Positions 4,006-8,957 of a stretch of 64,000 nt of DNA are shown in pieces. A program made the position numbers and the translations under genes. The stretch is from an uncultured Phycisphaerae bacterium (GTDB lineage: Bacteria > Planctomycetota > Phycisphaerae > UBA1845 > Fen-1342), in NCBI GenBank assembly GCA_937928595.1, contig CALGJV010000003.1, positions 124,001 to 188,000 of the forward strand. The letters run 5' to 3'. Position 1 is the stretch's first letter. Every line of letters starts with the position of its first letter. A model generated the notes under the pieces. That model had not been told where the DNA came from. It saw only the letters and a program-made list of their open reading frames with translations, and ran no database searches.

Positions 4006-4620
4006 ATGCCCATCCAGTTCCAGTGCGCCAGTTGCGGACAGCCGATCGAGGTCGACGACGAGCACGCCGGCAAGGTGGCCGCCTGCCCGTTCTGCCGGCA
4101 CGTCGTCACCGTCCCCGCCGCGACCACGCTGCCGGCCGCGACGGTGTCCGCCCGGCCGGCGGGCGGGTTGGCGCCGGTGTGGGCGCAAACGCCGCCGGTG
4201 GGCGGGGTCCTGCCGCCGGTGCCCGCGGCGGTGCCGTCGCCGACGACGCTGACGCTGGCGAACCTGGCGCTCGTTTGTGCAGTGGTCATGTTGGTCTGCT
4301 ACGCGGTCACGTTTACGGTCGTGGCGCGCGTGGCGGGTCCGGCGCTGCAACGCGCGATCGCGGAGGACGCACCGTCGAATGAACAGATTCGCGCCTTCGA
4401 GGCTGCGCTGAAGAACGCGCCGGAAATGGCGTGGATTGGCGTCTTGTCACTGGGGGGTACGGCGGTCGCGCTGGTCGGGCTCGTGCTGGCAGTGCTCAGC
4501 CTGCGGCGGCACCGGGCCCTGGCGCGGGCCTGGGTGGCGCTCGTGCTCTGTGCCGCCCCGCCGCTGTGCATGTGTAGCGGCTTGCTGATGAATGTCGCGG
4601 GCGGGCCCGGGGGCGGCTAG
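4006..4620 (+). CDS. Zinc-ribbon membrane protein of unknown function
   Basis: The 204-residue product opens with a four-cysteine zinc ribbon. CASCGQPIEVDDEHAGK is followed by a CPFC knuckle at about residues 6-30. A Pro/Val/Ala-rich linker follows (about 40-80), then a transmembrane helix around LALVCAVVMLVCYAV, a short soluble stretch, and two more helices (AWIGVLSLGGTAVALVGLVL and a final Cys-rich helix). This layout, ribbon-linker-DUF4190-like helices, is frequent in Planctomycetota genomes as small membrane proteins of unknown role. The ATG at 4006 is preferred because the ribbon begins directly after it, and earlier in-frame residues are Arg/Pro-rich with no fold. It is divergent from the membrane protein gene upstream. 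I do not recognise a function. Confidence 0.7.
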   Translation: MPIQFQCASCGQPIEVDDEHAGKVAACPFCRHVVTVPAATTLPAATVSARPAGGLAPVWAQTPPVGGVLPPVPAAVPSPTTLTLANLALVCAVVMLVCYAVTFTVVARVAGPALQRAIAEDAPSNEQIRAFEAALKNAPEMAWIGVLSLGGTAVALVGLVLAVLSLRRHRALARAWVALVLCAAPPLCMCSGLLMNVAGGPGGG

Positions 4621-4767
4621 ACGCCCGGCTCCGTTCGATCGGGCTACCGGACCTTCCTTCCTAACCTCTGCGGCGACGGCACGTTGCACCCGGAAGTTTG
4701 ACCACCCCGGGAGCGGGGCCTACTGTTTACCAGCGTCGCAGCCGCACCGCTGCGGGTTGTGTTCTTA

Positions 4768-5226
4768 ATGTCCTCGAACCGAGCCAGATCGGCCGCCAAA
4801 CCGCGACACACTCCATCGGGCGTGGTCTTCACGCTCGCCAGTGCCGAGCGTGCGCTCGTGCTGGTGCGGCGAATCGTGGCCGACATCGTGACCCGCTACC
4901 GGGTCCTGCAGGAGCTCAAGCAGCGGCGTGACGGGCTGACGGCCACGCTCGATGACGCCGACACGTTCGACGAGGTGCGCGCCGAAGTCACGCAGACGGT
5001 CGGCGAGCTCAACCGGCTGCACCAGGAGCTCGTGGACGTCGGCTGCGTGCTGAAGGACTGGGAGACCGGCCAGATCGACTTTCCGACCGTGTTCGAGGGG
5101 CGGCGCGTGTACCTGTGCTGGCGAACGGGCGAGGCGGCGATTACGCACTGGCGTGAAGAAGACGACGCGTACGCCGACCGCAAGCCGATTGACCCGGCGT
5201 TCCGGGCGGGGCAGCGCGAAGATTGA
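4768..5226 (+). CDS. DUF2203 family protein
   Basis: This 152-residue soluble protein begins with FTLASAERALVLVRRIV after a short basic leader. A long, probably coiled-coil, helical region follows (about 25-95). It ends in the DUF2203 hallmark: LKDWETGQIDFPTVFEGR, then YLCWRTGE and HW. That C-terminal block is diagnostic of the family, whose biochemical role is unknown. The gene can start at ATG 4768 or a GTG at 4759; neither has a clear ribosome binding site. The convergent rpiB ends only 8 nt beyond its stop, so the two genes share a very tight 3' junction. Confidence 0.8.
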   Translation: MSSNRARSAAKPRHTPSGVVFTLASAERALVLVRRIVADIVTRYRVLQELKQRRDGLTATLDDADTFDEVRAEVTQTVGELNRLHQELVDVGCVLKDWETGQIDFPTVFEGRRVYLCWRTGEAAITHWREEDDAYADRKPIDPAFRAGQRED

Positions 5227-5233
5227 ACCAGGC

Positions 5234-5725
5234 TCAGTTCGTCGGGGGCGAAGAGCCGCCGCCGCACCCGGCGGGCGGGACGTGGTGCCGAGCTTCGAAT
5301 TCCCGGATCTTTTCGACGCGCCGCGCGTGCCGTCCCCCTTCGAACTCGGTGGTCAGCCACACCCGCACGATACCCTGCATGAGCGCGTCGCCGACTAGGT
5401 CCGCCGGCAGGCATAGCACGTTCGCGTCGTTGTGGCGACGCGACATCTGGGCCGTCAGCTCGTCGTGGCACAGCGCCGCCCGGATCCCGTGTACCTTGTT
5501 CGCCGTGATCGACATGCCGATGCCGCTGCCGCACAGCAGTACGCCCCGGTCGGCCTTTCCCGCGGCCACCTCCGACGCCACCGCGAAGCCCAGGTCCGGG
5601 TAGTCGCAGGCCTGGTTCGCGAACGTACCGAGGTCGGCCACCTCCAGCCCCATGTCCAGCAGCAGGGCCTTGATCCGCTCTTTGGCCTGGAAGCCCCGGT
5701 GGTCGCTACCAATCGCGATCTTCAT
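5234..5725 (-). CDS. rpiB: Ribose-5-phosphate isomerase B
   Basis: RpiB (LacA/RpiB fold, 163 residues) interconverts ribose-5-phosphate and ribulose-5-phosphate in the pentose phosphate pathway. The start MKIAIGSDHRGF carries the phosphate-binding Asp-His. The catalytic-loop signature GVLLCGSGIGMSI sits near residues 82-94, and the HNDANVLCLPADLVG block follows. The C-terminus runs about 15 residues beyond the usual end with a Gly/Ser/Pro tail. The start codon lies inside the 3' end of the upstream fusion gene (20-nt overlap), so the pair is translationally coupled. The same neighbours (Sua5, phosphatase, RpiB) are known as separate adjacent genes in Bacillus, which supports both assignments. 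Confidence 0.95.
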   Translation of the reverse strand: MKIAIGSDHRGFQAKERIKALLLDMGLEVADLGTFANQACDYPDLGFAVASEVAAGKADRGVLLCGSGIGMSITANKVHGIRAALCHDELTAQMSRRHNDANVLCLPADLVGDALMQGIVRVWLTTEFEGGRHARRVEKIREFEARHHVPPAGCGGGSSPPTN

Positions 5726-6848
5726 TCAGGAACTCCTCCAGCCGGAGGTCCACGGCGCGCTCGATCTGCTCCGCACACCGTGCGTACTCGGCCGACGAGC
5801 CGCCGAAGGGGTCCGACACGGGGCCGGCCGGGTCCAGCAGGTGGACCTTGTCCGCGGCCGCCGGCACCCGGTCGATGACCGCCTGCCGGTGTTCCGCCGA
5901 GAGGGCGTAGATGCGCTCGGCCTGATGCACGAGTTCGACCGTCAGCGGCTGCGAGCGATGCTGCCGGATGCTCTCGACGCCGCGCCGTGTCAGTTGCTCC
6001 AACGCGCCGGCCGAAGCCGGCAGGCCGCCGCCGCACGCGACGCCAGCCGACGATACGTAATAACCGGCCGCGGCCAACGCGTCGAGAGACAGGCCCAGCC
6101 GCTGGGCGAGCTTGTGCCGGAACAGGTGCTCGGCCATCGGAGAGCGGCAGGAGTTGCCGGTGCAGACGAAGAGAATCTCGCTCCGCGTCCAGCGCCGCAA
6201 CGTGCGCTCGTCCACGGCACCGGCCCGCACCACCCGCCATTCGACGCCGCGCACCTCGACGATCGTCGACGCCGTGTTGAACCGCGTCGGCCCGCCGTCG
6301 ATCGCGTAATCCACGCGGCCGTCGAGGTCGCGCAGCGCCGCCGACAGGTCCAGCGGCGGAGGCTGCCCGTGCAGGTTCGCGCTGCTGGCGACGACCGGCA
6401 CCCCCGCGCCGGTGAGCAGCCGGGTCGCGACGGGGTGGTCCGGGCAGCGGAGGCCGACCTTGCCGTCGCGGTAGATTTCGGCCAGCACCGCGGGAGCGCA
6501 GGAACGCGCCAGCTCGGTTCGGTCCGGGTGCGGCTCCTCGCAGATGAGCGTGAGCGGCCCGGGCCAGCCCCGGCGGGCCAGACGGCGCGCGACCGGAGAG
6601 GGCTCGGTCAGCAAGGCCCGCGCCTGCGCACGGGTGCCGATGTGGACCGTGAACGGCTGCGTGCTGCCGCGGCCCTTCACCGCCCGGAGCCGGTCCACGG
6701 CCTCGGGCCGCAGAACGGTGGTGCCGACCCCGTAGACGGTCTCGGTCGGAAACACGACGAGCCCGCCGCCTCGCAGACAGTCGGCCGCCGCAGCGAGTCC
6801 AACGGCATAAGTATTTGTATCAGAGGCAGTTACAATCACAGTGCCCAT
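5706..6848 (-). CDS. Fusion of Sua5/YrdC/TsaC threonylcarbamoyl-AMP synthase and low-molecular-weight protein phosphatase
   Basis: Two enzymes are joined in 380 residues. Residues 1-210 are a YrdC domain: GGLVVFPTETVYGVG near 28-42, KGRG near 58, and the SSAN motif near 155. It should make threonylcarbamoyl-AMP for the t6A37 tRNA modification. Residues 222-380 are a low-molecular-weight phosphatase with the active-site loop Cys229-T-G-N-S-C-Arg235 followed by SPMAE, and a DPFG general-acid motif near residue 350. In Bacillus YwlE, a protein-arginine phosphatase, the loop is CTGNTCR; here Ser replaces the Thr linked to phosphoarginine preference, so either phosphoarginine or phosphotyrosine is possible. 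The ATG at 6848 is fixed by GGAGGT (6860-6855) 6 nt upstream. rpiB overlaps its 3' end. Confidence 0.9.
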   Translation of the reverse strand: MGTVIVTASDTNTYAVGLAAAADCLRGGGLVVFPTETVYGVGTTVLRPEAVDRLRAVKGRGSTQPFTVHIGTRAQARALLTEPSPVARRLARRGWPGPLTLICEEPHPDRTELARSCAPAVLAEIYRDGKVGLRCPDHPVATRLLTGAGVPVVASSANLHGQPPPLDLSAALRDLDGRVDYAIDGGPTRFNTASTIVEVRGVEWRVVRAGAVDERTLRRWTRSEILFVCTGNSCRSPMAEHLFRHKLAQRLGLSLDALAAAGYYVSSAGVACGGGLPASAGALEQLTRRGVESIRQHRSQPLTVELVHQAERIYALSAEHRQAVIDRVPAAADKVHLLDPAGPVSDPFGGSSAEYARCAEQIERAVDLRLEEFLNEDRDW

Positions 6849-7009
6849 CCGAAGACCTCCGGCGGCCAGCGTCGAGGATTCTCCTCGGGGTGGCAAAACG
6901 TGTCAAATCGGCGCTGCCGGTGGTGCAGTGGCCGCCCTCCGGCGCTCGCCGCGACGGGGCTTCCGACTGCCGGGCGTTTGCGCGGCTCCGGTCGCCGCCC
7001 GCGGCCCGC

Positions 7010-7038
7010 TTGTCGCTCGCCGGGCGCGGGGCTATACT
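7010..7038 (+). promoter_or_regulatory. Sigma-70-like promoter of the 102-residue basic protein
   Basis: TTGTCG (7010-7015) and TATACT (7033-7038) are separated by exactly 17 nt, which is near-consensus for a housekeeping sigma factor. Transcription would start at about 7045, giving a leader of roughly 33 nt before the ATG at 7078. The site lies in the divergent gap between this gene and the Sua5 fusion gene. Confidence 0.6.
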
Positions 7039-7077
7039 GCGCGACTCGGCCCGTGCGGCCGGTCTGGGAGTGCGGTG

Positions 7078-7386
7078 ATGGACATTGCTCCGGGCAAGAC
7101 GGTGACGATTGAGATCAAGGCGAAGCCCTCGACGCCGGCCGGCTGCAAGACGCTGGTGCGGATCTGCGCGAAGGACCCGGCCATGCGGAAGCTGGCGCGG
7201 AGCCGCAAGGCGAAGCGGCCCTCGTGGCAGGAATGGCAGCGGGGCGGGCGTCTGTGGCACCACCAGATGCGCAGCGCTGCACCCGTGCAGCTCGTGCCCG
7301 GGCGGCGGTACGCAGTGCGGGCCACGCTGGACGTGATCCGGGACCTGGCGAGTGTCGAGCGCTGGGTGACCGTCACGCCGGATTGA
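7078..7386 (+). CDS. Small basic protein of unknown function
   Basis: I do not recognise this 102-residue protein. It is a soluble, strongly basic product with a beta-rich start (TVTIEIKAKPSTPAGCKTL), a central Lys/Arg stretch (about residues 40-50), an aromatic WQEWQRGGRLWHHQ block, and a second beta-rich half ending RWVTVTPD. There is no signal peptide, membrane segment or cysteine pair pattern. It looks like a real gene: a good promoter (7010-7038) precedes it, a stable hairpin follows the stop, and composition is coding-like. The basic-aromatic centre would suit nucleic-acid or ribosome binding, but that is a guess. Confidence 0.6.
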   Translation: MDIAPGKTVTIEIKAKPSTPAGCKTLVRICAKDPAMRKLARSRKAKRPSWQEWQRGGRLWHHQMRSAAPVQLVPGRRYAVRATLDVIRDLASVERWVTVTPD

Positions 7387-7391
7387 CGGGT

Positions 7392-7408
7392 GACCAGCAC
7401 AGCTGGTC
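7392..7408 (+). terminator. Terminator-like hairpin without U-tract
   Basis: GACCAGC and GCTGGTC form a perfect 7-bp stem with a 3-nt ACA loop, starting 5 nt after the stop of the small basic protein gene. No run of T follows, so it may act as an mRNA 3' stabiliser or a weak intrinsic terminator. Confidence 0.4.
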
Positions 7409-7514
7409 GTATCGCTGAATCCATCGCCCCGGTCCGCGGATTTCGCCGGCTGGGGCGTGATCGTTAACGGGGCTGCGTGGGGGCAACGTGGGCCTGTTCG
7501 CCATCCCGCCCGCG

Positions 7515-8957
7515 TCACTTGCCCGCCGGGCGGACGCGCGTCAGCCACCGATACGCCAGCAGCAGCGCCGCCAGCAGCGCGAGGAGCTGGGCGGCGCGCC
7601 AAGCCGCGTGGTCGATCAGGGCCCGGGACGTCAGCGCCGCGCGGTCTAGCACCTCAGCCGCCGGCGCCGTCAGCTTCCCCGCCTCACCCGACACGGCGCC
7701 GGACGCGAGCAGCCGCTGCAAGTCCATTACCAGGCCGCGCAGCTCCGTCGTCGTCCGGGTCAGGGCCTCGGCCGAAGCCGTCACGTCGTCGAAGCGGAAA
7801 CCGGGTTGGGTCGTCGCGACGGGGTCCGCTGGACTGGTCGCCGGCACCGTGGCCGGCTGCGTGTCCGCCGGTTTCCGCCAGGCGGCCAGTTCCCGTGAGG
7901 TCGCGCCCACCGCCTCGGCGGTCACCGACCACGCCCGTCCCGCCTCGGTAAATTGCGCGAGCGTCTTGTCCAGCGCCGCCGTCAGCTCCCGCAATTCCGT
8001 CGCGGCCGCGCGGACGGCGTCGGCCGTTTGCCGGGCCTCCCCGAGCGTAGCGCGGGCCTGCGGGTGCGACTCGTCCACGCGGTCCAGCAGTTGCTCGGCC
8101 TCCTCTCGCGTGCGGCGCGGCAAGTCCTCGACGACCTGCGTGAAGTGTTCGGCGCTGGCGGCGATGCGGGCCACGCTCTGCGTCGTGGCCGCGACGGACG
8201 GCATCTGCTCGAGGTCCTCCGCCAGCAGGAGGGCCTCGCGGCGGGTTGTGGCCGGCAGGTCGCTCACGACATCGGTGAAGCGGTCGGCGGTGCGTGAGAT
8301 GTCGCGCATCGCGTCGGAGGTCTGGTTCATCTTTTCCACGCCCCGCAGGGGCGCGAGCGGAACGTCGAGGATCCACTGGAGGACGCTCTGGCCCGAGGCG
8401 ACGTCGCTGAGGTCGCGGGCGGGCGGGGCGACGAACCCGGGTTGCAGGGGGTGGGTGCGGGCGTACTCGTCGACGCTGGCGCGGATCTGCTGGAGCGTCT
8501 CGGGCGGCACGTGCGCGAGGGCAATTTCTTGGCCGCGTGCCAGCAGGTCCCGTGCGGCCGCCCGAGCCAGGGGGCCGGCGGGGCCGAACTCGGCCGCGCC
8601 CGGGCCGTGCTCGAAGTAGTCCTGCATGCGCCGGCACAGCGACCAGACGTCGAGCAGAATCTCGCGCGGGTCGTCCTGGTCGAAGGCGTGCCGGAGCAGA
8701 TTGCCGGCCTGGACGCGCCAGGTCGTCACGGCCGTGCGCTGCGCGCGGGTGAGGTCGAGCTGCCGCGCCTGCGACGCGGCATCGTCGATCGTCGTGCGGA
8801 ACTCCGCGGCGAACACGCGCAGCGCCTGGGCCAGCGCGGCGGCTTTCTCATCGTCCGACGCCGGAGCGGGGCGCTGCGGGCCGGGCGTGAGCAACTGGCA
8901 CGCGGGCGCAAACCCCGCGGCGAGCAGCGGAAGGATCAGCAGAAACCGTTGCCTCAC
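7515..8957 (-). CDS. Predicted lipoprotein with helical/coiled-coil body and C-terminal membrane helix
   Basis: A GTG at 8957 gives a clean lipoprotein signal: RQRFLLILPLLAAGFAPAC, with Cys20 as the lipidated residue. From it a 480-residue protein follows. The mature part is almost entirely helical, with heptad-like repeats from about 150 to 350 (TTRREALLLAEDLEQMP, RTREEAEQLLDRVDES). There is a Pro/Thr/Gln linker with DTQPAT and ATTQPG near 375-400, another helical block, and a final hydrophobic helix AAQLLALLAALLLAYRW with a basic tail. This resembles methyl-accepting-type or tape-like periplasmic coiled coils only in general shape. I cannot assign a function. A longer form from ATG 9008 is possible but would bury the signal peptide. 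Confidence 0.6.
   Translation of the reverse strand: MRQRFLLILPLLAAGFAPACQLLTPGPQRPAPASDDEKAAALAQALRVFAAEFRTTIDDAASQARQLDLTRAQRTAVTTWRVQAGNLLRHAFDQDDPREILLDVWSLCRRMQDYFEHGPGAAEFGPAGPLARAAARDLLARGQEIALAHVPPETLQQIRASVDEYARTHPLQPGFVAPPARDLSDVASGQSVLQWILDVPLAPLRGVEKMNQTSDAMRDISRTADRFTDVVSDLPATTRREALLLAEDLEQMPSVAATTQSVARIAASAEHFTQVVEDLPRRTREEAEQLLDRVDESHPQARATLGEARQTADAVRAAATELRELTAALDKTLAQFTEAGRAWSVTAEAVGATSRELAAWRKPADTQPATVPATSPADPVATTQPGFRFDDVTASAEALTRTTTELRGLVMDLQRLLASGAVSGEAGKLTAPAAEVLDRAALTSRALIDHAAWRAAQLLALLAALLLAYRWLTRVRPAGK

Follow-up and report, generated by a model that had tools for sequence, protein, structure and literature searches.

The 64-kb window, the whole stretch of DNA analysed here, comes from a 3.69-Mb genome assembled in 46 contigs and carries on its reverse strand a gene that joins a Sua5/TsaC (YrdC) domain to a low-molecular-weight (LMW) phosphatase domain, with rpiB at its downstream end (Table 1). 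The reading frame begins with an ATG at 6848, contains zero internal stops and closes with a stop codon ending at 5706; upstream of the ATG it remains free of stops as far as a TTG at 6896. Pfam finds Sua5_yciO_yrdC and LMWPc in the same protein. What the preliminary description had claimed for the locus, namely a fusion of the two enzymes in a single protein of 380 residues, an rpiB gene overlapping its end, and a CTGNSCR loop in which Bacillus YwlE has Thr opposite Ser233, was borne out on all three points, the last by alignment to YwlE of Bacillus subtilis. No Rfam match was found at 4500-8000, nor any tRNA gene in the 64-kb window.

Table 1 Features of the fusion locus in the window
Feature	Position	Strand	Basis or remark
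rpiB, ribose-5-phosphate isomerase B, 163 aa	5234..5725	-	Pfam and NCBIfam RpiB; overlaps the fusion by 20 bp
Sua5/TsaC-YwlE fusion gene	5706..6848	-	One stop-free frame, 380 aa
YrdC/TsaC half, aa 24-210	6219..6779	-	PF01300 E 2.3e-45; TIGR00057
KxR motif (K58 G R60), YrdC half	6669..6677	-	Alignment
SxN motif (S156 A N158), YrdC half	6375..6383	-	Alignment
LMW phosphatase half, aa 225-366	5751..6176	-	PF01451 E 4.9e-19; phmmer; Foldseek
P-loop CTGNSCRS, aa 229-236 (catalytic Cys229, specificity Ser233, Arg235)	6141..6164	-	Alignment
General-acid Asp346 in DPFGG	5811..5813	-	Identical to B. subtilis YwlE DPFGG

The YrdC half scores above the curated cut-offs of both PF01300 (154.7 bits, cut-off 25.1) and TIGR00057, the NCBIfam model for threonylcarbamoyladenylate synthase (151.9 bits, cut-off 123.2). 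Its KxR/SxN tetrad, a signature used as a filter for family membership in PMC10321239, is complete (K58, R60, S156 and N158), and the strict tetrad is present in 92 of 145 fusions. Like Sua5 and TsaC, the protein thus combines the YrdC domain and its motifs with a passed TIGR00057 threshold and with Sua5 structures as its best Foldseek E-values; unlike Sua5, it lacks a match to the Sua5 C-terminal domain PF03481 in Pfam. In two stand-alone Sua5 proteins of the phylum (L158 and L166) PF03481 directly follows the YrdC domain, and judged against these the phosphatase half occupies the place of the Sua5 C-terminal domain. The only other PF01300 protein in the window's genome is a HypF. From what is known of the family, we infer that the YrdC half is a threonylcarbamoyl-AMP synthase of the t6A pathway. 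TsaC-like domains within modular multidomain proteins have precedents in HypF, TobZ and TsaN (PMC10321239; title of 8ide), whose partner domains, as named in those sources, are Kae1/TsaD-like and others and differ from the present case in including no phosphatase of the LMW family.

An alignment to YwlE of B. subtilis (4kk3/1zgg) covers almost the entire phosphatase half, the two loops reading CTGNSCRS and CTGNTCRS, and YwlE and the Thermoanaerobacter tengcongensis structure 4egs are the closest solved structures to this half in both phmmer and Foldseek searches. This supports the YwlE-like character first proposed for it. The LMW-PTP fold, the C(X)4CR(S/T) loop and the acid Asp are all present in the window protein, and the fifth P-loop position (PX5), where the YwlE type has Thr, holds Ser233. 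According to PMC8001253, YwlE and PtpB prefer phosphoarginine when this residue is Thr and phosphotyrosine when it is Ile. Across 145 fusions PX5 is Thr in 128, Ser in 9, Leu in 3, Ile in 3, Met in 1 and Arg in 1. The Ser of the window, to which the preliminary description drew attention, is therefore a minority form in which the hydroxyl is kept; Thr is the rule. An alignment of 134 rows, three of them the window sequence, shows the catalytic Cys in all 134; the loop Arg is conserved in 132 rows, and 131 have the acid Asp (two have Glu and one a gap). The likeness to YwlE and PtpB thus extends to the fold (1.7-2.1 Å to YwlE crystal structures), the P-loop, DPFGG and, in most relatives, Thr at PX5; the differences are Ser at PX5 in the window protein and the fusion to YrdC, YwlE and PtpB being stand-alone proteins. 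On these grounds the phosphatase half probably removes phosphate from arginine. The only other LMWPc match in the window's genome (L006) looks, by its motif, like a relative of arsenate reductase. A variant loop, C.GN[TS]DRS, was seen in ten loci of family f64 (L053, L077, L078, L086, L091, L097, L098, L115, L117 and L141), where the second Cys has become Asp while the catalytic Cys and the Arg remain; in YwlE the second Cys is the partner in a redox switch. PF00217, the McsB catalytic domain, was detected in 7 of the 9 f64 genomes tested and not found in G162 and G189.

The two halves are predicted to pack against each other. The AlphaFold2 model of the window protein (79 fusions) reaches a pLDDT of 96.5 and a pTM of 0.91 and shows a very short connection, with a helix at 214-220 and the first phosphatase strand starting from 223, which suggests a fixed arrangement of the halves. 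A relative whose YrdC motif is lost (L064) is still modelled as YrdC plus phosphatase (pLDDT 93.5, pTM 0.86). Foldseek ranks Sua5 structures first for both models, followed by YwlE and 4egs; for the window model the fits are 2.0 Å to 4etn and 1.7 Å to 4pic and 4egs.

A search for the fusion across genomes had been proposed. In a survey of 392 genomes of the window's phylum, apparently Planctomycetota, with up to four candidates scored per genome and counts made among the matches listed, at least 142 genomes carry the fusion, and a quirk of the window's genome is thereby ruled out. At locus level, 130/130 genomes checked have the two halves in a single frame uninterrupted by stops, a set comprising the window, L014-L042 and L047-L146 that was drawn from the best-scoring full-length rows and hence selected for fusion. 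About ten survey rows report one internal stop; among those inspected at the locus, the halves share one open frame. Another 33 genomes, whose survey matches were weak or not listed, yielded 12 more fusions, each in a single frame. In 15 of the 33 the halves matched separately, either on different contigs or with 8 kb or more between them (G231, G242, G251, G278, G295, G303, G337, G342, G348, G360, G368, G372, G376, G380 and G384), and the rest comprised weak phosphatase matches only (G071, G107), the YrdC half only (G049, G122, G300) and an ambiguous case (G364). The fusion is widespread in the phylum but not universal. Eight of the genomes with unfused halves (G303, G372, G342, G360, G231, G251, G337 and G348) belong to the window's own class and have Sua5 and the phosphatase on different contigs; in these the fusion was either re-split or never present. 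A scan of named genomes gave seven loci, of which the two from Planctomycetota (L007, L008) are fused and the other five match one half only. Because the fusion recurs across genomes in single stop-free frames, including those of single-contig assemblies (L027, L038, L040, L052) and of the 12 additional genomes, the proposal that an annotation artefact or a sequencing error joined two frames can be set aside with near certainty, even though some fusion loci sit on short contigs of fragmented assemblies.

The linkage to rpiB is likewise common. Of 132 fusion loci, 90 have an rpiB gene downstream in the same orientation, which overlaps the fusion in 43, by 4 bp in 37 of them, the overlap counts resting on approximate starts; rpiB was not found at 38 loci where 700 bp or more of flanking sequence was present, lies on the opposite strand at one, and three loci had too little flank for a judgement. 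The order of the sua5-ywlE-rpiB cluster is already known, and we take ywlC (Sua5), ywlE and rpiB to be neighbours in that order in Bacillus. A hint of linkage to RpiB also comes from 4egs, whose YwlE-like domain is equally similar and whose PDB molecule name is RpiB; going by that name only, it may differ from the window protein in having RpiB as a fusion partner on its opposite side. A search of open-licence papers found none on this T. tengcongensis RpiB-phosphatase protein.

To judge from their motifs, the two halves of the fusion decay separately. Of the 87 fusion genomes with known status, 54 retain the core YrdC motif (K, S, N); a second, stand-alone Sua5 is present in 4 of these and absent from 50. 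The motif is degraded in the other 33, of which 32 possess a second Sua5 and 1 does not (Fisher p 2.9e-18, kinship not corrected). With the strict KRSN motif the corresponding counts, without and with a second Sua5, are 44 and 1 for intact versus 7 and 35 for degraded motifs. The GNTCRS phosphatase loop is kept in 33/33 fusions with degraded YrdC, and the stand-alone Sua5 was full-length with its C-terminal domain in 2/2 checked by Pfam. On a tree of the phosphatase half, the YrdC state changes 7 times on the best topology, with 1 change forced by strongly supported branches, and an independent-pairs test on this tree, relating YrdC decay to the presence of a second Sua5, was not significant. 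The contrast is seen within family f5 (G111 and G356 vs G352 and G185) and within f38 (G240 vs seven others, with G387 as an exception), and f73 (G274, G353) and f7 (G209, G261) yield exceptions only. Among these exceptions, G274 has a degraded YrdC and a second Sua5 was not found, and G353, G387, G209 and G261 combine the core motif with a second Sua5. Faster evolution of the YrdC half after motif loss was considered and rejected, as the within-genus divergence ratios do not set lost-motif genera (g79 1.49, g224 1.50) apart from core-motif genera (g184 1.81, g150 1.56). Cross-genus identities are 0.319 for YrdC and 0.561 for the phosphatase in f32, and 0.573 and 0.575 in f73, which includes the degraded L131; since the within-genus ratios fail to separate, we give this gap no weight. 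Loci of f32 (L064, L068, L070, L071, L074, L080, L083, L092, L110 and others) have neither KxR nor SxN while their phosphatase loop is intact, and it is possible that the f32 YrdC half is a pseudoenzyme adaptor.

A protein-arginine phosphatase would be expected to act opposite a kinase, and the suggested search for a McsB-like arginine kinase in the genome was successful. The window's genome contains one PF00217 gene, adjoining a mcsA-like gene. Its McsB passes NCBIfam NF002194 with 411.6 bits (cut-off 385), and the McsA-like protein falls below its NCBIfam cut-off (122.8 vs 210). This McsB-like gene is the candidate cognate kinase of the fused phosphatase. Across the phylum PF00217 is present in 371/392 genomes, and in 212/217 of the better ones, its identity as McsB being checked by NCBIfam for three genomes (the window's, G127 and G311). 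It was not found in 21/392; fusion carriers without a match include G189, G219, G263, G305, G313 and G343, most of these six being less than 90% complete.

Both partners are altered in genus g20 (G311, G331). The loop of the fused phosphatase there reads CEANTLSS, with the Arg gone, and Glu replaces the acid Asp (EPDG); the motif of the YrdC half, the sole PF01300 domain in each genome, is preserved. The McsB proteins (L186, L187) are degenerate, NEEDH having become NGEDH and CPTNVGTG a SKISNAGTG-like sequence, with other conserved Arg and Glu residues gone; by analogy with phosphagen kinases, we take the lost residues to be catalytic. McsB of G311 scores 177.9 bits against NF002194, and that of G127, which looks intact yet falls just short of the cut-off of 385, scores 376.1. 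In the other three genomes of the same family (G127, G392, G393) the phosphatase loop and Asp are kept and McsB looks intact, judged by alignment for G127 and by PF00217 E-value only for G392 and G393. Such joint decay is what a kinase-phosphatase pair predicts, and it represents one evolutionary event in one genus. We observed McsB and fused phosphatase degraded together in g20 as the sole genus.

An ordinary protein-tyrosine or small-molecule phosphatase in place of an arginine phosphatase would fit the phosphotyrosine name of the Pfam family and the NCBIfam search, which gave no arginine-phosphatase match for this half and lists solely tyrosine-phosphatase and arsenate-reductase models, all under cut-off; Ser at PX5 in the window and Ile in three fusions would also fit. 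We consider this unlikely, as YwlE and 4egs are the top structural matches, Thr stands at PX5 in 128/145 fusions, PF00217 occurs throughout most of the phylum, and the phosphatase decays together with McsB in g20.

Therefore, with a probability of roughly 0.7, we read the protein as a bifunctional enzyme that would pair a t6A synthase with a YwlE-type protein-arginine phosphatase opposing McsAB, that arose from fused sua5-ywlE-rpiB neighbours and that is widespread in the phylum. In such an enzyme, the N-terminal half would make threonylcarbamoyl-AMP, the first step of t6A tRNA modification, and the C-terminal half would strip phosphate placed on arginine by McsA-McsB, encoded elsewhere in the genome. 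Neighbouring genes of the cluster would have fused with the phosphatase replacing the Sua5 C-terminal domain.

What the physical connection contributes is a separate matter. The preliminary description had called a link between t6A modification and protein dephosphorylation unusual; the physical fusion is real, and the link is less arbitrary than supposed because TsaD of B. subtilis is a McsB/YwlE/ClpCP substrate, phosphorylated at Arg282, as stated in passages of PMC7546277. According to the same source, mutation of ywlE makes TsaD less stable, and disruption of mcsB or clpC, ywlE overproduction or R282K makes it more stable; threonylcarbamoyl and YwlE are both mentioned there and in PMC8670212. 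Since TsaD is such a target in Bacillus, tethering may protect t6A synthesis: a phosphatase held near TsaD would sustain it under stress. In its strongest form, this hypothesis makes the YrdC half, catalytic or not, a docking module that would bring the arginine phosphatase to TsaD and its partners in the t6A machinery. There it would erase the phosphoarginine tags with which McsB marks proteins for degradation, and t6A synthesis would thereby be linked with McsB-ClpCP protein quality control. Docking rather than catalysis would then be the reason why lineages that possess a second Sua5 retain a motif-less YrdC half. We regard this proposal as speculative and rather doubtful, because a neutral fusion is likelier.

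A functionally neutral fusion, in which clustered housekeeping enzymes were joined through loss of a stop codon and are co-expressed but carry out t6A synthesis and dephosphorylation independently of each other, competes with the tethering step only and leaves the bifunctional reading as it is. It would account for the cluster context, rpiB following at 90/132 loci and the Sua5-phosphatase-rpiB order being that of Bacillus too, for the separate decay of the halves, as expected of unconnected functions, and for the 15 of 33 genomes in which separate enzymes suffice. It is less easily reconciled with the persistence of a YrdC domain ahead of the phosphatase in the 33 fusions that have lost the core motif, with the confident fold of motif-less L064 (pLDDT 93.5), a domain kept without its motif, or with the near absence of a linker between the packed halves in the AlphaFold2 model of the window protein. 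On balance we give it an even chance.

Both halves come from known families, and the fusion itself was not found described: a search of open-licence papers gave, among the titles and abstracts listed, no description of a Sua5/TsaC-YwlE fusion, and none on McsB in Planctomycetes, judged by title. The nearest published survey of proteins with a TsaC domain (PMC10321239) mentions Sua5, HypF and TobZ, and a term search of this and a second paper on the family returned no word beginning with 'phosphatase' or 'planctomyc'.

The bifunctional reading would extend probable protein-arginine phosphorylation, by McsB and a YwlE-type phosphatase, to an entire phylum outside the Bacillus group, and one polypeptide would tie probable arginine dephosphorylation to a universal tRNA modification. 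In Bacillus, according to PMC7546277, how stable the t6A enzyme TsaD is depends on YwlE and McsB; a physical fusion found in a different phylum adds a clue independent of this, and whether arginine dephosphorylation protects t6A synthesis becomes testable with one protein, for which the YrdC halves that are still attached but motif-less would serve as ready-made separation-of-function variants.
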